64,000 nt of DNA from Candidatus Methanohalarchaeum thermophilum (GTDB lineage Archaea; Halobacteriota; Methanonatronarchaeia; Methanonatronarchaeales; Methanonatronarchaeaceae). The notes under the pieces are model-generated. The model did not search any database. It saw only the letters and a list, made by a program, of their open reading frames with translations, and had not been told where the DNA came from. Positions 9,337 to 58,350 of the stretch are shown here, one piece after another. Each line of letters opens with the position of its first letter. Position 1 is the stretch's first letter. Position numbers and translations under genes: made by a program. The stretch lies in the NCBI GenBank assembly GCA_001914405.1, contig MSDW01000001.1, forward strand, positions 868,001 to 932,000, written 5' to 3'.

Positions 9337-10995
9337 ATGGCTGAAGAAAAATTTATTGAATCTCTAAAAAACAAGTTTGAAGAAGACCCAACATCCAAAA
9401 ACCAAAAAAGTCTATACCAATTAGGTGGATACAAGCAATCTAAACGAAAAAAAGAATTCCAAGAAGCAGGACAACAAATAGCAAAAGAAAGAGGCACCAG
9501 TTCATTTAATGAAGATATAGGAGTTCCTCTAGGACAAAGAGTACTAATGCCATACCAACTCTCACATACAGACATGACAGTAGAACCAGACGACCTTCAT
9601 GTACTAAATAATGCAGCAATGCAACAAGCATGGGACGATATACAAAGAACTGTCATCGTTGGCTTAGATATGAGCCACAAGGTCCTAGAAAAAAGACTAG
9701 GAAAAGATGTAACCCCTGAAACAATTAACCAATATCTAGAAACATATAACCACACTCAACCAGGAGGAGCTGTAGTCCAAGAACACATGGCAGAATGTAA
9801 CCCAGGAGTAACTGGAGACGCATATGTAAAAGTTTTCACAGGAGACGACGAACTAAAAGACGAAGTAGACGATCAATTCCTACTAGATATAGATGAAAAA
9901 TTCCCAGAAGATCAAGCAGAACAATTAAAAGATGCAATAGGCGAAACAACTTGGCAAATACTTAGGGTTCCAACCATTGTTGTAAGAACAATGGACGGCG
10001 CAACAGTAAGAAGATGGGCAGCGATGCAAAGCTGCATGGCATTTATATCAGCATATAATCTATGTGCAGGAGAAGCACCAGTATCAGACTTCGTATTCGC
10101 AGCAAAACATCAATCAGTAGTGAACATGGGGTCAGCAATGCCAAGAAGAAGAGCTAGAGGGGAAAACGAACCAGGCGGAATTCCATATGGTTATGTAGCA
10201 GACATGGTTCAATCATACAGAGTTAAACCAGACGATCCAGCAAGAGCAACACTAGAAGCTATAGCACTAGGAGCAGTACTATACGATCAATTATACCTTG
10301 GAGGATACATGTCAGGCGGAGTAGGATTCACACAATATGCAACAGCAACCTACACCGATAACATACTAGAAGACTATGTATATCACGGAGTAGACCTACT
10401 AGAAGAGAAATACGGTGGACTAGGACAAGCAGACACAACAATGGAAGACGTAGAAGATATAGCAACAGAAATGACAGATTACGCATTAAGCGAATATGAA
10501 AACTACCCTGCAGCAATGGAAACACACTTCGGTGGCTCACAAAGAGCAGCGGTAACAGCAGCATCAGCAGGAGTAACAACAGCAATGGCAACAGGAAACT
10601 CAAATGCAGGAGTAAATGGATGGTACCTATCACAACTACTCCACAAAGAAAGATTAGGTCGCCTAGGATTCTACGGATACGACCTACAAGATCAAGCAGG
10701 TTCAGCGAACAGTCTATCCTTCCGAACTGACGAAGGAATACCATTTGAACTCAGAGGACCAAACTATCCAAACTACGCAATGAATGTAGGACATCAAAGC
10801 GCCTATTCAGGAATAGCCGCCGGACCACATTACGCACAAGGACACGCATTCTGTGCAAACCCACTAGTTAAAATAGCATTCGCCGACGACAGAGCACTAT
10901 CCTTCGACTTCAGAAATGTAACAAAAGAATTCGGAAGAGGAGGACTCAGGGAATTCGAACCAGAAGGAGAAAGAAAAGGCAAAATATCTCCATAA
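9337..10995 (+). CDS. mcrA: Methyl-coenzyme M reductase, alpha subunit
   Basis: The 552-residue catalytic alpha subunit carries the standard primer motif [18 protein letters not shown]. Aligned by eye to Methanothermobacter numbering, the modified residues are His257 (FAAKHQS), Arg271 ([13 protein letters not shown]), Gln400 (GGSQRA), Gly445 (GFYGYD) and Asp450 (LQDQ). The residue matching S-methylcysteine 452 is alanine (DQAGS, residue 454 here, codon 10696-10698), so that modification cannot occur. The other sites are present, implying the thioglycine and methylarginine enzymes are encoded elsewhere. It is the last gene of mcrBDGA and is followed by a T-rich terminator. Codon 1 overlaps nothing, and the spacing to mcrG is two bases. 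Confidence 0.98.
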
Positions 10996-25542: not shown

Positions 25543-27892
25543 TTAAGAACTCCTGACTTTATCCGAAATAAAATCTGATATCCTCCTTATTACCGATTGA
25601 AGAGGTTGCCGTTTCTTTACCATGATCACTTCCCCATCAAATTCTTCTCCTACTTTTTCTGGGATAGTACCAAACAATGCTTGTTGAACAATTCCCTTTT
25701 TCGTAGCTCCAATAACAATAGTATCAAAACTATTTTCCTTTGCATAGCTAATTATTGAATTACCAATATCTTCACCACTAATTATCTCTGTTTCAACATC
25801 AATGTCTTCTTTTTCAAATTTCTTCTTATGTTTGCTTATTAATTCCTCTGATTCACCGTTTGGGGATTTAGTTACATTCAGTAATGTAATTTCTCCTGTT
25901 TCACCAAATGCCATCGAGATTTCTTCGGCTAACTCAGAGTTTTTACCCTTAGCTACTGGAACAAGTATTTTTTCTCTCTTGGATTCCTTGGTTTTAGCAA
26001 CTGCTACATCGCATGGTGCATTTTTAACGACATTATCTATGGTAGACCCTAAAACTAAATCAGGTACTCTTTTTCTCTTTCCTCGCCATCCTAGTAATAT
26101 TAAGTCACTATCTCTGCTATAGGCAATATTATTTATGCTTTTACTAATATCTCTACCTACAGTTACTACCGTATGAACAGGTACATCTGCTTCAACATAT
26201 TCGGAAGCCTTTTCAAGTAATTCTCTTTGTTCCTCTGTAGTGTATTTATGCGCTTCATCGATCGGAGTCTGTTCAGGTATGGTTACTATAGTAGTAAACA
26301 GTATCTCTCCATTTTTCTCTTTAGCTACCTTACCACCTATTTTGGCTAATTTTTTGAGGTTTTCAGGATTTGAGATAGGTATAAGGACTTGATATTCTTT
26401 TTCTTTGGCAACTCTTTCTTCAGAAACCAATTTAGTTTCTTCTTTTATCTCCTCTTTGCGTAGATTCTTTCTTGAATAAAGGAAGAATATTAGCATTCCA
26501 AAGAGTATCCATGATATTGCACCGATCCAAGCAAGAGGACTGTAAGTAAAAAGATAAAGGGCTAAAAATAGATTTGTTAATATCCCAATTATTGGTACAT
26601 AAGGGAAGTAGGGCATTACATATCCGTAATCTAGTTTGTGGCCATATTCTCTTCTTATTTTAATGACAGCGAAATTGACTTGCAAGAAAAGTAATAAAAA
26701 CATAATGTCCGTTGCTACAGCTACATCTTCGATAGGTAGGCTAATAGCCATTAATATTATTAACATTCCACTGAAAAGAACTGAAAGATGAGGGGTCTTC
26801 TTTTCAGGATGAACTCTTTTAAATAGCTCTGGTAGGACATTATCCCTTCCCATTACAAATCCTACTCGAGTACTTGAAAATGTGGTTGCGTTTAGAGCAG
26901 ATAGTGTAGAAAAAATCCCTGCAACTAAAATAACTAGAGTCCCCATAGGGAGTATTTGGTTTGCAGCCCGAGCTAGTCCTAGTTCACCAAGATTACCTAG
27001 TACCTGCCATAAAGCTGGGTCTTCAGGTATTTGAGCGTGACTACTAGCTGCTTCAATTAGTACTGGCGTTACTTCTACAGCTCCCATAAGCACAATAGAA
27101 ACAAGCATATATATTGAGACGACAGCAATCATTGAATAGAAAACTGCTTTAGGAACGCTTTTTCTTGGTTTTACTACTTCTTCTCCACTTTGAACAATTA
27201 TTTCATATCCCTCAAAAGCTATGAATGTGATTCCCATTCCTGTAACTACTCCGCCAATCCCATTAGGGGTGAAAGGTTTAAAATTTTGAATTGTTTCAGA
27301 TGGTTGCCCAAGTATTGCTCCTATACCAAATATAATAAAGATGAATATAACTGTTACTTTTACTAATGTTACTATGTTTCCTGCTAGTCCGGTTTCCTTA
27401 GCTCCTCTATAGTTTATATAAGTAAATAGTGTTCCGGCAAAGACCGCAAAGATCTTATGTAAGAGGGCCTGGGAGACGCCAAGTGATAGCCCCGAAGTAT
27501 TCTACTAGTAGTAGGGTTACGAAGGACCCAAATCCTAGGCAGTAGAGTGAACCGGCCACAGCATGAGCAAACCAACTCATCCATCCCGCTAGAAATGCTT
27601 GAGATGCTTGAGATCGGCCTAGGGCTTCTCTTACCCATAGGTATCCTCCTCCGGCTTCAGGAATAGCACTACCTAACTCGGCGTAACTCATACCAGTTAT
27701 GATAGCAATAAAACCATTTAAAGCGAAAACCATTAATAGGGCCGGACCTGCTTCGCCTGCTGCTATACCTGTAAGAACAAATATTCCTGCTCCAATCATT
27801 GCTCCTACGCCAATCATCGAGATATCAAACAAAGAAAGATTTCTTGCTAGCTCTGTGTCTTCCCCGTAACTGGTTAAGCTATCATCACTCAT
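25543..27892 (-). pseudogene. APC-family permease with UspA tail, frameshifted
   Basis: An amino acid/polyamine permease reads in two frames. The N-terminal part (27892-27455) has MIGVGAMIGAGIFVLTG and continues to YFGAITWRLPGP before a stop. Removing one C from the GGCCC run (plus strand 27465-27469) restores LLHKIFAVFAGTLFTYINY and the rest of the transporter. After about 12 helices come two tandem UspA domains (starts YQVLIPISNPEN and EKILVPVAKGKN; the second has VIGATKKGIVQQALFG). It may be an inactive gene or one sequencing error, since the rest is undamaged. Upstream, a 50-residue membrane protein overlaps the start. Confidence 0.85.
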
Positions 27893-28487: not shown

Positions 28488-28990
28488 GTGACATCCTCTT
28501 TGCCCTAAGAGGATGGGGCTTCTCTCTATTCCCGTCCTTTTAGTCCACGGTTAAAGACAGTACCGAGGGAAGTACCATGACAGGCCACTGACCTGTCATG
28601 TTATAGGCATTGTTGACTGTTCCCGGCCCATATCGCCGGCTTCCTACCTATCAAGTGACCAAAAAGCCGATAGGAAGAGGTCTGGGCTCTAGCTAGGGAG
28701 TTCCATATCCCCAGCTTAACGTTTTCGCTAGAGGAAAGTTCAAAAAAACTGGAGGGGTCTGTCACAGGAGCCCTTGTTTGTGCAACTTACTTAGGGGATT
28801 CAGTTCTAAAGAACCTCGCTTGGTGCGCCCTTCTCTCCGTGGCAGAGAGAACTCAGGAAACGGGCTTGTCCAAAGGATTGTCACCACGACCCGACTTAAT
28901 CTATGTTCGTTTAACTCACATTTAAGTTAGTTGAATACAAGAATCGCTGAATCCCCTGCCTAAGGAGCGGAATCTTTTGCGACTTATTAA
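28488..28990 (-). repeat. PATE-like element with tnpB-type 3' tail
   Basis: Read on the minus strand, it begins with a left hairpin (CCGCTCCTTAGGCAGGGG) and ends AAGCCCCATCCTCTTAGGGC...GAGGATGTCAC. The 150 bases before the end contain a strong hairpin (CATGACAGG...CCTGTCATG) and TTCCCTCGGTA, shared with the element at 29075. It is GC-richer than the chromosome and has no coding frame. It is a decayed IS200/IS605-type non-autonomous element whose tail resembles a TnpB guide-RNA scaffold. Confidence 0.6.
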
Positions 28991-29074
28991 AATAAAGATT
29001 TATAGTAGAGTAAGTAGGGAGAATTTGATGTCTTGCCGTGTGGGTCACTTCACTAAGGAATCTAAATTAAGTAA

Positions 29075-29488
29075 TTAACTCTTTGCCTAAGAAGTCTCTT
29101 TTCTGGATCTTTGGTTTAGGTGGGTGATGAGTTGGGGTGGTTTTATATATCTAGAGACAGGTGCTTTGGATACGAAACGGGATGCCGGAAAGCCTCTAGT
29201 TCTCCAAGTTGGTGGAGAGCTTTAGGGCAGGGGAGAATGAATAGCTCTTCTGAACGAAGGAAGCCTCTTCTGGCATCGGGAGTACCGTGACCGTACTCGA
29301 AGCCACTACCGTTGACCTGACCTCTGTACATCAAGTTGGTGAGGTAGGTGGCAACCGTCAAAAAGGTGGACGTTCCACCCTATCAGGACGTTCCTGATAG
29401 ATTCCCTCGGTAGTCCGAAAACCAGATGATACGGACGAATAGAAGGAAGCACCTTCCTAACCAACAGTTAGGTAGGTGAAGAGGTCAC
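29075..29488 (+). repeat. PATE-like element, type C, with tnpB end and guide-RNA-like tail
   Basis: The left hairpin is AAGTCTCTTTTC...GGTGGGTGATGAG. At about 29280-29350 a frame reads TVTVLEATTVDLTSVHQVGE, which matches the C-terminus of the tnpB remnant at 43328 (VAVPEATTDELISAMQVSEV). It is followed by the perfect hairpin TATCAGGACGTTCCTGATA, TTCCCTCGGTAG, a GTCCG/CGGAC pair, and the right hairpin ending GAGGTCAC. The element at 55941 is a homologue. Confidence 0.65.
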
Positions 29489-29699
29489 ATTTAAATAGCA
29501 AGATGATATTAGGGGGAATTACTTTAGGAAAAATTAATTATCTCTCCTAGATTAAAGTATCTATTCATTCTCTATCAGGATCAAATATGTTTTTTGGATT
29601 TAGAGAAACTAATTTTTATTTTCTTAATTTAATAATTTAATTAAAACAGCTTATAAAAATAAAAAATAAAAAATAAAAGATTTTTATGTTATTAGGTGT
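29489..29699. other. AT-rich gap after the histone gene
   Basis: No gene seen. T-runs near 29605-29690 probably terminate the histone transcript on the minus strand. Confidence 0.4.
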
Positions 29700-42251: not shown

Positions 42252-43328
42252 ATGAGGGCTGAGAAAACTATCGTTTGTAGGATAACTGAACCGAATAAGG
42301 GTGGATCAGAGGTTCTAAAAAGGGGGGTACAAAATAGGGTTCAGCAGTGTATAAGAGGTGAAGAGGTGGGTATATATTCGGCTACTGCTTAGGCTATTGG
42401 TGGGTATATGGATGGGGGTCATCTAAAAGACAAGGAGTACTCTTGGTACTTGAGGAATGATATATTTTTGGTATAGGAGGTAGAATACAGTAGAGAGTTT
42501 GATTATTGGGCTAAGGATATCTGTGGAAGATGTCTATGGTGGCGTTTTATTTCTAATAGTACCACACGAAGAAATAAAAGAAGAATACAATATCTAGGAT
42601 TTAATTATAGTTAGAAAAGAGTATGGTTTTAAACTCCACTTATCAGTTTCAAAGGAAAGTAGAACCTGTGAAAAACTATAATGATGCCATAAGCATTGAC
42701 ATGGGCCTGAATGAGTTTGCGGCCTGTGTTCAGGTTGCCCGGCCGTCAGACCCCTTGCTATGGCACTCATATAGGTAATATACAAGACAAGTATTTCTTC
42801 TTCCGTAGAAACTGTAAGAATGGCTATGTTAGGAGAAAGTGGGGTAATAAGGACAAGAACAAGATAGAAGACATTTGCCATAAGATAAGTAGGAGAATAG
42901 TTGATAAGGCGAAAGAAAAGAACTTGTTGATTGTATTCGGCGACCTAGAGGATATACAGGAACAGGAAAAGGGGAAAGAAATGAATAGAAAGCTTCATAA
43001 CTTCCCACATTGGAAACTCCGAAATTACATCAAATATAAAGCCAAATGGATAGGGATAGAAGTGGTGAAAGTAGACGAAACATATACACCTCAACGCTGT
43101 TCAAGGTACGGAAAACTCGGATACAGACACAAAAGAAGCTTCAAGTGCGATAATTGTGGATTAGAAACAGACACTGATGAAAATGGAGCTCATAACATAG
43201 CTATTCGAGGTATCGGAAAGTTTGAGAAAATTTCTTCTGATACTGGGGGCATCGTGGCAGTGCCCGAAGCCACTACTGATGAACTGATCTCTGCAATGCA
43301 AGTCAGTGAAGTAGGTGGCAACCTTTGA
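42252..43328 (+). pseudogene. tnpB: Decayed IS1341-type tnpB
   Basis: The N-terminal part (MRAEKTIVCRITEPNKGGSE...) has at least two in-frame stops (about 42396 and 42471) and about three frameshifts. A RuvC-I motif SIDMGLNEFA is still readable near 42695-42725, and the last 180 codons are open, with RuvC-II around VFGDLEDI, a zinc finger and RuvC-III TDTDENGAHNIA. The first zinc pair reads CSRYG instead of CSxCG, so one cysteine is lost. The end (VAVPEATTDELIS...SEVGGNL) recurs in nearby non-coding elements. TnpB is an RNA-guided nuclease; this copy cannot be functional. Confidence 0.8.
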
Positions 43329-43336
43329 AATCGGCC

Positions 43337-43371
43337 GGAACCCCCGCCGTTTACGGCAGGGAGGATGTCAC
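43337..43371 (+). repeat. Right end of the tnpB element
   Basis: The hairpin CCCCCGCCGTTTACGGCAGGG is followed by GAGGATGTCAC, the same terminus as the other elements. It lies eight bases after the tnpB stop. Confidence 0.6.
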
Positions 43372-43676: not shown

Positions 43677-44426
43677 ATGTCAAAGGATAATCTTTTGGAG
43701 ACTGGGATAGAAGGACTAGATCTACAACTTCAAGGTGGTATACCTAAGGGATCAACTATCCTTTTACTTGGTGAGCCTGGTTCTGGTTTACAAACATTTG
43801 CTGGACAGTTCTTGAATCATGGCCTAAAGGAGGGAGAAAAAGGATGGTATTTTGTAACTAGAGATCCTCCAAATGTTGTAAAAAAAGATTTTAAAGGATT
43901 CGGGTGGGATTTTGAAGAGAAAGAAAAGAAGGGCCAGTTAGAGTTTGTAAATGGATATATAGGAAGGTTTATCGGGGCTTTGCCACCTGAAACCTTAAAT
44001 GAGTTATCTTCGGATGAGCAAACTAAGAGAGGGGCTGATATATTAAGTAAATTAAGAGATTATGTGACTTCCCTCAGAAATGATATACCACTTAGAGGAG
44101 TAGTAGACTCTATATCGGATTTTTTAAAAAGCCACGAGGTCAATGAAGTAACAACTGTCGTAAAATTATTATCCAGCGTTTCCAGGGTTTCTGGAGGAGT
44201 GAACTTGATTTTAATGACTAAGGGAATGCATGGAGAGAGTTCAGAAGTAAAAATGCAGCACAACGCTGATGTGGTTCTATCAGTTAGATCCCAAGATAGA
44301 GGAAATGAGATAATTAGAGAATTAATAATCAAAAAAGTTAGAGGTGTTGCTTTTCCATCTAAAGTAATTCCTTATGAAATAACGGAGGAGGGGATTGAAG
44401 TAGAAAAGACTGAAAGAGTTCTGTGA
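43677..44426 (+). CDS. KaiC-like RecA-fold protein with degenerate P-loop
   Basis: This 249-residue single-domain protein of the KaiC/RadA (RAD55) group starts MSKDNLLETGIEGLDLQLQG. The P-loop region is GEPGSGLQT (residues 32-40): the invariant Lys of GxxGxGK is replaced, so ATP binding may be weak or absent. It keeps the rest of the fold (GWYFVTRDPPNVVKKDF, ESSEVKMQHNADVVLSV). Similar archaeal proteins are linked to signalling or motility control. The gene is monocistronic with no clear ribosome site and has a TATA-like stretch upstream. Confidence 0.65.
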   Translation: MSKDNLLETGIEGLDLQLQGGIPKGSTILLLGEPGSGLQTFAGQFLNHGLKEGEKGWYFVTRDPPNVVKKDFKGFGWDFEEKEKKGQLEFVNGYIGRFIGALPPETLNELSSDEQTKRGADILSKLRDYVTSLRNDIPLRGVVDSISDFLKSHEVNEVTTVVKLLSSVSRVSGGVNLILMTKGMHGESSEVKMQHNADVVLSVRSQDRGNEIIRELIIKKVRGVAFPSKVIPYEITEEGIEVEKTERVL

Positions 44427-45043
44427 CAACATCTCTGATCGAAGAGGTCGATGGTTCCACCATTCGAATTTTTCTAGTCCAAGGAATAGGGGTGTTACTG
44501 ATGGAAGTGACAGAAACTCGAACCACCGATTCTTCAAAGTCATCTTCGTAGGTTTTTCTCTCTATATCGCTAACTTCTTATGAAGAGGATGGGTCGTAAC
44601 TTGAGTAATCCGGTGTACACTGCTAAAATTAGTCCCTGTTCATAGCTAACGAGAGATCCTATCTTCGAAACTTTCGAAGCCACCACATTTGGCTGCAGAG
44701 ACTCAGAGAGAGGCCTTATCACATATTTGCCAGAACCTGCTACCTATTAATATTATTGGAATTATTTAAAGATTGGATGTATCCTCTCTCTAAAGGAAAG
44801 AGATTTTAAATTTGATTCCAGTTCTTCCGTTCTTGCGGAAAATATTAACATATTTTTACTCTGTTAAAAATCTTAAAAACCTCTTTGAGTTGTAATTTTA
44901 GGTTTTGATGCATCTTTGACCTTTTTTCTCTTTGATAGTCTCTGATTTTCAAGTTTTTTAATAGAATTTAGGTTTGGAAAAATGAATTAAATAATAAATA
45001 TTGTTTTCTTTATGTCGTAAACGAATGTCTTCTGTCAAATCGA
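44427..45043. other. Unassigned intergenic stretch, GC-richer at 44430-44770
   Basis: The first 340 bases are less AT-rich than the flanks. On the minus strand about 50 codons stay open near 44430-44580 with a protein-like composition (DIERKTYEDDFEESVVRVSV), interrupted by a stop further upstream, so it may be the remains of a gene or an RNA. It is not recognisable as SRP RNA, RNase P RNA or tRNA. The remainder to 45043 is plain AT-rich sequence. Confidence 0.35.
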
Positions 45044-55858: not shown

Positions 55859-55940
55859 AAAACGATCCCCTAATAAGCAAATTACAATAATAAAATAACC
55901 TTTAACCACTTTTATTTTATCTCCTCTAACCAATTTAACC

Positions 55941-56367
55941 TTTGACCCTAGAAGTCAACTTCCTAAATTTTTGGTTTAGGTGAGTGATGAATTGGGTAAG
56001 ATAGGATGTGACTGAAAGAGTAATTTGATGTGATACGGGATGTCGAATAAGCCTCTAGTTCTCTGATTTGGTGGAGGACGCTAGGGGTCAAGAGAAAATG
56101 AATAACTTTTCTGAACGAAGAAAAACCCTCTTCTAACATCAAGGGCACTGTGGCCGGTGCCCGGAAGCCACTATCATCGACCCAAACCTCTGCAACCCAA
56201 GTCGGCGAAGGTAAGTAGGTAAACGTTAAGCTAGAGGGCGTTCCTCTCTATCAGAACGTTCCTGCGAACCTCTATCGATAGCTGTGAATAACTAGATGAC
56301 ACGACACGGAAGAATAGGACAGAAGAACCTTCCCCTAACCAAAGGGCGGGGAGGTGAAGGAGGTCAC
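55941..56367 (+). repeat. PATE-like element, type C, with guide-RNA-like tail
   Basis: It is a homologue of the element at 29075: left hairpin (GAAGTCAACTTCC...GGTGAGTGATGAATTG), the segment GCCTCTAGTTCTCTGATTTG, the tnpB-end-like stretch GGAAGCCACTATCATCGACC, a hairpin-rich part (CGTTCCTCTCTATCAGAACG), and the right hairpin (CCTTCCCC...GGGGAGG) ending GAGGTCAC. No open frame remains. 56368-56739 shows no gene. Confidence 0.6.
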
Positions 56368-56978: not shown

Positions 56979-58230
56979 GTTAACAGAAGAATAAGAAGAA
57001 GTTTTTACTTCTCTTTCTGAGATATGTAGGTTGCTTTATGATTTTTCACTCAAAGAAAGTATAGAGAACTGGAAAGAAAACAAGAACAAATCAAAAGAGG
57101 AAAGAAATTACATTACATATACAGATCAATAAAATAAGTTATTCAAATTAAGAGAAGGATACTCAAAATATAACTGGGTGTATTTAAAAGTCTTACAAAT
57201 GATTTTAAAGAAACTGGACGCCGATTACAAGTCTTTCTTCTCTCTATGGAAGAAAGGAGATAATAAAGCGAAACTACCAGGATTTAAAGGCAGTAAATAC
57301 TTCACGAATTTATGCTATAACCAATCCGGGGTCAAAATAAAAAAAGGGGAAATAAAGTTTTCTTACAACCATCCAGACAAAGCAGAACTATCTTTTGATA
57401 TTTCAACCAAGTTTTATTTAGAAGATAAGAACATTAGACAAATCGAAATTTTCAGAGACGAAGTTAAAGAAGAATACTATATCTCAATATCTTACGAGGT
57501 AGATACTCCAAAATACAAAGATAACGGAAAGTATCAAGCTTTCGATTTAGGAGTTAACAAACACATAGGAGTTAATATGAGTGGGAAGTTCGTTGGGTTC
57601 AAGAACCCAAGACCAGACAAGTATTGGCAATCGAAAATAGAAGAAGTTCAATCAAAAAAAGACAGATGTAAAAAAGGAAGTAATAGATGGAAATGGTATA
57701 ACAAGAAATTGCAACAGGTGAAAAGAAAACTTGCTAATCAAATGAAGGATTGGCAACATAAATTAAGTAAAAAAATAGTTGAGAACACTAAAGCGAATAT
57801 TATAGTAGTTGGAGATTTAGATACTAAAGATATGGCACAGAACAACAAGAATGTAGAGGGCTTGAACAGGAGTTTACAAAACACAGGCACCATAGGTAGA
57901 TTTGTTAGATTTCTAATCTACAAGGCAGAACTTGTAGGTAAGAAGGTAATAGAAATCAACGAAGCAAACACTACCAAAAAGTGCTGTGTCTGTGGAAAGA
58001 AACAGGATATGCCATTACATAAAAGAACTTATAAATGTGATTGTGGAAACGAAATTGACAGAGACAAAAACTCTGCTATCAATATAATGAATCGTTTCCT
58101 ATCACAAGAACGCTCTGTGAACGAGCAATCTTCCTTTATGGAAGATTTTCTGCGACAAACAGGTTTGGAATACGCCAACCAGCAAATGTCCAAACACTCG
58201 CAGGAAACCCCTTCCTCACGAACAACGTGA
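56950..58230 (+). pseudogene. tnpB: tnpB with two in-frame TAA codons
   Basis: Read through in one frame from ATG 56950, it gives about 426 codons of TnpB: MQLTQKIKIELTEE, stop at 56992, EEVFTSLSEICRLLYDFSLK, stop at 57130, then NKLFKLREGYSKYNWVY and the intact rest. Both stops stand where relatives have glutamine, so each is a single CAA-to-TAA change. The later part has RuvC-I FDLGVNKHIG, RuvC-II VVGDLDTKDM (Gly where Glu is common), zinc cysteines CCVCGKKQ...CDCG and RuvC-III DRDKNSAINI. It is probably inactive, though a shortened product could start at TTG or ATG codons after 57132. Confidence 0.75.
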
Positions 58231-58350
58231 GCTAGGTAGGGGTAGTTCACAGTAGAGTAAAGGTAGAAAACCCATAGCATGCTTTGAGGGGCACTCATAA
58301 ATAGACCCAATAGTTATTTTTTTAATTAAATTCATCTCATTGTTAGGTCA

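Follow-up and report, generated by a model that had tools for sequence, protein, structure and literature searches.

Mobile tnpB-less elements with a conserved TnpB-type guide-RNA scaffold in Candidatus Methanohalarchaeum thermophilum

Background

What becomes of a TnpB guide RNA when no tnpB gene stands next to it? The question is raised by a 64,000-nucleotide stretch of the genome of Candidatus Methanohalarchaeum thermophilum (C1:868001-932000 of a 2.14 Mb genome in four contigs), subsequently referred to as the window. An earlier note on this DNA had pointed out three elements, beginning at 28488 (minus strand), 29075 and 55941, and had suggested that they could be guide RNAs kept after the loss of tnpB, each pointing at its own flank. 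The window also encodes the alpha subunit of methyl-coenzyme M reductase (McrA, 9337-10995, + strand), and the host is thus a methanogen. On the minus strand (25543-27892), an amino-acid permease/universal-stress-protein gene is split into two open frames, and profile positions ~112-193 are absent between them.

The genome contains 89 matches to PF07282, the TnpB zinc-finger domain, many of which lie in frames that are short or interrupted, as well as 24 matches to the Y1 transposase domain PF01797, few of which are uninterrupted. The same TnpB family is also carried by relatives known from saline-lake metagenomes. TnpB relatives with up to 86–90% identity are furthermore found in Thermoplasmata, Diapherotrites and Halodesulfurarchaeum MAGs (L137, L138, L140, L145), which suggests that TnpB may have been transferred between phyla.

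Elements of this general kind are known in archaea: a 2011 paper treated the palindrome-associated transposable elements (PATEs) of Haloquadratum walsbyi as non-coding degenerate elements (PMC3119063).

Results and discussion

Three tnpB-less elements in the window

The element noted at 29075, a member of family A, occupies positions 29079-29488 on the plus strand and has no TnpB coding sequence upstream. Its left end adjoins the target motif TTAA (29075-29078), which by analogy takes the position of a TAM. A box TTTATATA at 29142-29149 matches the archaeal TATA consensus TTTAWATA perfectly. It is followed by a P0 domain (29181-29277), whose closing stem (GATGCCGGAA/TTCTGGCATC) encloses two internal arms and which is larger than in tnpB-linked copies. 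Next comes the core of a TnpB guide RNA (reRNA), made up of the stems P1, P2 and P3 (29278-29356; E = 5.1e-17 with our core model R1, whose training set included this copy as well as tnpB-linked ones). The P1 loop, GTGAC (29287-29291), is complementary to the GTCAC terminus of the element. The coding scar EATTVDLTS that had been reported for this copy is indeed present; it runs from 29299 to 29355 within the core and shares 76–78% DNA identity with tnpB 3' ends, corresponding to the TnpB C-terminus. The E module (29397-29450; E = 4.7e-17 with model R2), found only on tnpB-less elements, consists of stem E4, a GGTA/GAA internal loop and stem E3, which show covariation. The element closes with a right-end hairpin and terminus, GAGGTCAC (29450-29488), and the flank behind it, ATTTAAATAGCAAGATGATA (29489-29508), is a putative guide, its position being assigned by analogy with ISDra2 TnpB (PMC8612924).

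The second element, of family B, lies on the minus strand at 28488-28993, with an approximate left edge (~28993). Its P1 hairpin (28754-28773) also presents the loop GTGAC on the minus strand, its E module lies at 28518-28576 (R2 E = 2.4e-4 in L233), and its scaffold is similar to that of the tnpB at C2:221328. The third element (55939-56367, + strand) is a diverged copy of family A, 71% identical to 29075-29488. Its core (56141-56223) is matched by R1 with E = 2.2e-9, and its P1 stem reads GGGCAC/GTGCCC as opposed to GAGTAC/GTACTC. All three elements end in the right-end hairpin and GTCAC terminus noted before (28488-28492 on the minus strand, 29484-29488 and 56363-56367 on the plus strand). 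The tail string TTCCCTCGGTA, which had been ascribed to all three, is exact in only two of them, at 28561-28571 (-) and 29402-29412 (+), and these are its only exact occurrences in the window; the element at 55941 carries CTCTATCGATAG instead and keeps the fold.

Full-length copies of the 29075 element occur elsewhere, two at 96–97% identity and four at 68–72% (one of these being the 55941 element), and the 28488 element has eight copies with 74–85% identity over most of its length. Together with the R1 core match, these full-length copies show that the three elements are not chance resemblances. A tnpB-linked comparison is provided within the window by an interrupted tnpB (42711-43371, + strand; 205-aa open part, PF07282 E = 1.4e-20) with a canonical scaffold (R1 E = 2.7e-16) and the right end GGATGTCAC. 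A further, probable tnpB-less element resembling family F lies on the minus strand at 44423-44790 (left edge approximate, terminus GTCAC at 44423-44427); its model matches are weak (R2 E = 0.985, R1 E = 3.7). At 57178-58250 (+), the window encodes a 350-aa TnpB (PF07282 and PF01385) with the right end GTAGTTCAC, and an upstream hairpin loop GTGAAC is complementary to GTTCAC. Rfam, HEARO included, yielded no family matches in the window.

Copy number and mobility

Genome-wide we count at least 60 tnpB-less copies, families being summed without overlaps; these numbers come from searches and are hence lower bounds, not exact totals. The copies fall into several families: A (7), B (about 10), D (about 12), E (about 10) and F (2–3), plus family C with 37 matches, 14 of which are near-identical. 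Their general layout comprises a left end, a TATA-like box, a structured RNA of ~300 nt and a right end. Family E ends in GTCAG, and tnpB-less scaffolds were also observed outside the GTCAC class. Element A gave 0 matches in 59 other relatives, and a search of viral contigs (with two exact patterns) and plasmids for the elements returned no match.

The 14 family C copies are 408 bp long, share 95.3–99.3% pairwise identity and have identical ends, each lying behind TTAA(C) and ending in GTCAC, at distinct sites with different flanks. Three copies of family A are likewise 96–100% identical, and TTAAC or TTTAAC precedes the left end in most A, C and D copies. One C copy is nested in a B-type element. 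When its flanks are rejoined, they align across the site to B copies that carry no insertion, with no target duplication, and the inferred empty site is ...TTTAA|GTTTATT. It follows that the C after TTAA belongs to the element. The elements contain no transposase or tnpB gene (tblastn with local TnpBs), and a length of 408–430 bp leaves no room for tnpA. Dispersed near-identical copies and the empty site of the nested insertion thus indicate that the elements moved as tnpB-less units. They are mobile non-autonomous IS200/IS605 elements of a PATE-like kind, not tnpB loci that decayed in place, and here we depart from the earlier reading: the tnpB-less families were transposed as such. Clearly decayed copies do exist (e.g. 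L245, L251, L015). In L285 (C1:969300-970600), a family C RNA is attached to a left end of another type (TTTGGTGAGAAATCCC...), which suggests that RNA modules and ends recombine.

The guide-RNA core and its pseudoknot

The P1-P2-P3 scaffold of A and related copies is also present at nine tnpB-linked right ends belonging to the GTCAC class. In an alignment of 14 tnpB-linked and tnpB-less sequences, 79.6% of the cells in the core stems are paired, compared with 27–48% when the stems are slid along the sequences, and 33 cells are changed on both sides of a pair against 13.5 ± 3.4 after shuffling (cells count sequences, not independent events). The R1 model detects 39 sites in the genome at E < 1e-3; TnpB coding sequence lies within 1.3 kb upstream of 13 of them, and none was found for the other 26 (tblastn with local TnpBs). 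Core matches in other genomes are tnpB-linked, except for one without TnpB that resembles a chance match (L186). We also considered that the scar might be kept as protein and rejected this, for its frame shifts between copies and core lengths differ by numbers not divisible by 3.

In ISDra2, the loop of stem 1 pairs with the bases adjoining the guide (PMC10097598). For each locus we searched for a hairpin loop able to pair with each of six termini, judged by complementarity alone. At tnpB-linked loci, the loop pairs with its own terminus in 12 of 12 cases for GTCAC, 4/4 for TTGAC, 2/2 for GTCAA, 2/2 for CTTAC, 5/7 for GTCAG and 27/45 for TTCAC. The tnpB-less copies behave alike (C 14/14, E 7/8, D 6/8, A 4/5), and family B gave no clear result by this search. 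Counts for foreign termini are mostly low; the exceptions are C for the terminus TTCAC (13/14) and E for GTCAC (7/8), where the matches are due to wobble pairing or to an additional hairpin. Loop and terminus, which are ~180–210 nt apart and up to 280 nt in B, change jointly: GUGRC goes with GUCAC, CUGGC with GUCAG and CUGGU with AUCAG. This is clearest in family E, where CUGGC is found with GUCAG, CUGGU with GUCAG (a wobble, L250) and CUGGU with AUCAG (L242, a tnpB-less copy). As judged from these complementarities, the P1 loop/terminus pairing corresponds to the ISDra2 pseudoknot (PMC10097598).

The scaffold ends at the right-end boundary, behind which the flank is variable. The view that the tails represent a TnpB guide-RNA scaffold ending at this boundary is borne out by the covarying core stems and the retained pseudoknot. 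The earlier note had named, as an observation that would speak against it, a scaffold whose structure functional TnpB loci do not have in common; we made this comparison and found that covariation of the core stems extends over tnpB-linked as well as tnpB-less copies.

Additional RNA domains of tnpB-less elements

The RNA of tnpB-less elements is larger than that of tnpB-linked ones and contains extra domains. The enlarged P0 stem with its two arms precedes P1 in tnpB-less families (clearly so in A, C, D, E and F), and in D copies this stem is formed by other sequence (GTTCACGGT/ACTGTGAAC). The tnpB-less families compared also carry an extension that separates the core from the right-end hairpin; the R2 model covers a 53-nt module of this extension (a stem, the GGUA/GAA internal loop and a second stem). 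This E module occurs at 29 sites of the genome (R2 E < 1e-3), with TnpB upstream in 0 of the 29 (17 + 12 tested), and in none of the listed tnpB-linked right ends of the genome. It was not found in six other genomes, most of which have the TnpB family (one chance-level match, E = 0.92), nor in 393 other genomes of the phylum except for three weak matches of 2e-4 to 7e-4 per genome, which is about chance over so many.

Pairing in the E module amounts to 84.2% as compared with 34–56% for slid stems, and 26 cells are double-changed against 10.0 ± 2.4 after shuffling. Since the module occurs only without tnpB, its variation must have arisen without tnpB, yet the pairing was kept. In family C, 180 of 192 cells of the P0, P1 and E1 stems are paired in copies about 70–74% identical to the reference; only the slid control was used here, as the diverged copies resemble one another too closely for shuffling to be informative, and the script placed stem E3 one base off. 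Judging from these alignments, the scaffold was apparently kept under selection after the loss of tnpB, with the type of constraint expected of an RNA. An excess of G-T over A-C on the sense strand was considered as proof of RNA, but in tnpB-less copies it is too modest to decide (54:32 in the core, 36:26 in the E module).

The main rival explanation holds that the elements are passive, PATE- or MITE-like units in which only the ends matter for TnpA, while the interior is ancestral baggage or single-stranded DNA structure with no RNA function left. Such PATEs have been described, and in Haloquadratum versions consisting of the ends only (52 bp) may still be able to move (PMC3119063). IS200/IS605 elements do not need TnpB for their mobility (PMC8612924, PMC9956272), the modest wobble excess fits as well, and the hairpins may be kept as single-stranded DNA. 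However, covariation extends over the ~300-nt interior, far past the end hairpins, and the distant P1 loop and the terminus change jointly, also in a tnpB-less copy. If the ends sufficed, terminal-only elements should dominate, whereas the copies examined keep the RNA. The putative mobility of the 52-bp PATEs even suggests that an RNA of ~300 nt is not needed for moving, and its upkeep then asks for another reason. We consider purely passive elements unlikely, though less so than any of the other rival readings discussed below.

A model of mobilization and guide use in trans

Matching tnpA/tnpB elements are present in the same genome. The sole fully uninterrupted GTCAC-class element that we found (C1:451380-453000, - strand) encodes a TnpA of 130 aa (PF01797, 3e-40) and a TnpB of 345 aa (PF07282, 1.5e-23), and by eye its left end is similar to those of D, F and B. 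Other tnpB-less families also have their ends in common with IS605-type elements. Element A shares both ends (left 86%, right 82%) with the element at C2:71076-72714, whose uninterrupted tnpB lies at C2:71260 (360 aa). The left end of family E is 79–86% identical over 41–54 nt to those of GTCAG-class tnpA/tnpB elements, and the right-end type is common to both, too.

A promoter-like box is likewise found in front of the RNA. The perfect TTTATATA of the 29079 element stands ~38 nt before P0, and TTTAAATA stands 33 nt before P0 in F1. With the exception of one C copy (L273), the remaining copies that we tested have comparable or weaker boxes (0–3 mismatches) 31–36 nt ahead of P0. If the spacing is that usual in archaea, transcription would begin immediately in front of P0, as far as a consensus match can tell.

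We propose that these are RNA-only non-autonomous transposons of the IS200/IS605 type, and we put the probability of this reading at about one half. TnpA, the Y1 transposase of resident elements with the same ends, would move them in trans. Transcription of their RNA would run across the right end into the flank, and the TnpB of a related element would load this RNA in trans. After excision, the flank would direct TnpB to the vacated donor site (TTAA + flank), and repair of the break from the sister copy would restore the element, which would thus be retained. For ISDra2 TnpB, such cutting of the empty donor site has been proposed in cis (PMC8612924). Two properties of the resident system bear on the model. 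Local TnpBs widely read G-D/E-L at RuvC-II as opposed to the usual E-D-L, and their nuclease activity is therefore uncertain. In addition, none of the tnpB-linked RNAs examined has the P0 arms or the E module, so that a resident TnpB may not accept the RNAs of tnpB-less elements.

The same observations can be accommodated if the RNA is a decoy or inhibitor that competes for TnpB and shields the host or the element from cutting. Core and pseudoknot would bind TnpB, the extra domains could block its activity, and tnpB-less copies outnumber the tnpB-linked ones with the same ends. A decoy, however, needs neither an exact right-end boundary nor a terminus pairing beside the guide, and we regard it as improbable. 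We give equally little weight to the idea that the RNA works with another protein, serves the host as a regulatory RNA or guides a dead, TldR-like TnpB repressor. The non-canonical RuvC-II motif would suit such a role, as would P0 and the E module with its loop-E-like GGUA/GAA motif, which are conserved only in tnpB-less copies; the many unrelated sites with different flanks, however, fit selfish spread better than one regulatory role. Decay in place of tnpB loci that lost their gene, which some single copies without module E do resemble (C1:370193, C1:441834), is hardly credible for the families described here, being contradicted by dispersed near-identical tnpB-less copies with precise ends at many sites and by covariation acquired without tnpB.

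Taking the RNA-only transposon model one step further, we tentatively suggest, with somewhat less confidence than in the model itself, that the several families form a guild of RNA-only transposons. They would encode nothing but a guide RNA and parasitize TnpA for moving and TnpB for re-copying into the empty site, and P0 and the E module would have evolved for life without tnpB.

Comparison with known systems

Guide RNAs that stand apart from a nuclease gene have a precedent: standalone omegaRNAs reportedly act in trans with IscB (Altae-Tran 2021). They are alike in this separation but belong to the IscB/Cas9 lineage, not to TnpB, and, as mentioned, Rfam including HEARO gives no match here. 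PATEs resemble the present elements in being tnp-free, in their IS605-type ends with near-terminal palindromes, in the lack of target duplication and in the coexistence of near-identical and diverged copies; one of them, HqIRS71, even retains part of the C-terminal coding region (PMC3119063). Unlike PATEs, the elements described here have an interior formed by a conserved TnpB-type guide-RNA scaffold with a pseudoknot and extra domains. This scaffold agrees with the reRNA/omegaRNA of ISDra2 (PMC8612924, PMC10097598) in its place at the tnpB 3' end and right end, in the stem-1 loop pairing with guide-adjacent bases, in the right-end boundary and in the TAM-like motif at the left end. It differs in lacking tnpB and in having a larger RNA that includes the P0 arms and the E module, and guide use is proposed by analogy. 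With ~300 nt, the RNA is within the range of the processed omegaRNAs of 59 TnpB orthologs (79–466 nt, PMC10278001), all of which, in contrast, come from tnpB loci. In the open-access literature searched, which did return PATEs and TnpB reRNAs, we found no report of tnpB-less elements with a conserved TnpB reRNA; PATEs and standalone guide RNAs are known separately, and their combination was not found there.

Conclusions

If the proposed reading is true, TnpB homing is not confined to the element that carries the tnpB gene, and guide RNAs can spread on their own. Many PATE-like repeats of archaea would then need to be re-read as possible guide-RNA genes. The complementarity of loop and terminus is valid in several terminus classes, and reRNA pseudoknots could therefore be predicted on this basis with no more than the sequence at hand. 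Under the proposed reading, the families would also amount to a natural collection of scaffolds in which domains are altered and pseudoknots co-vary, and they would make it possible to test whether elements are served by TnpB in trans, which is beyond the reach of single-element systems.
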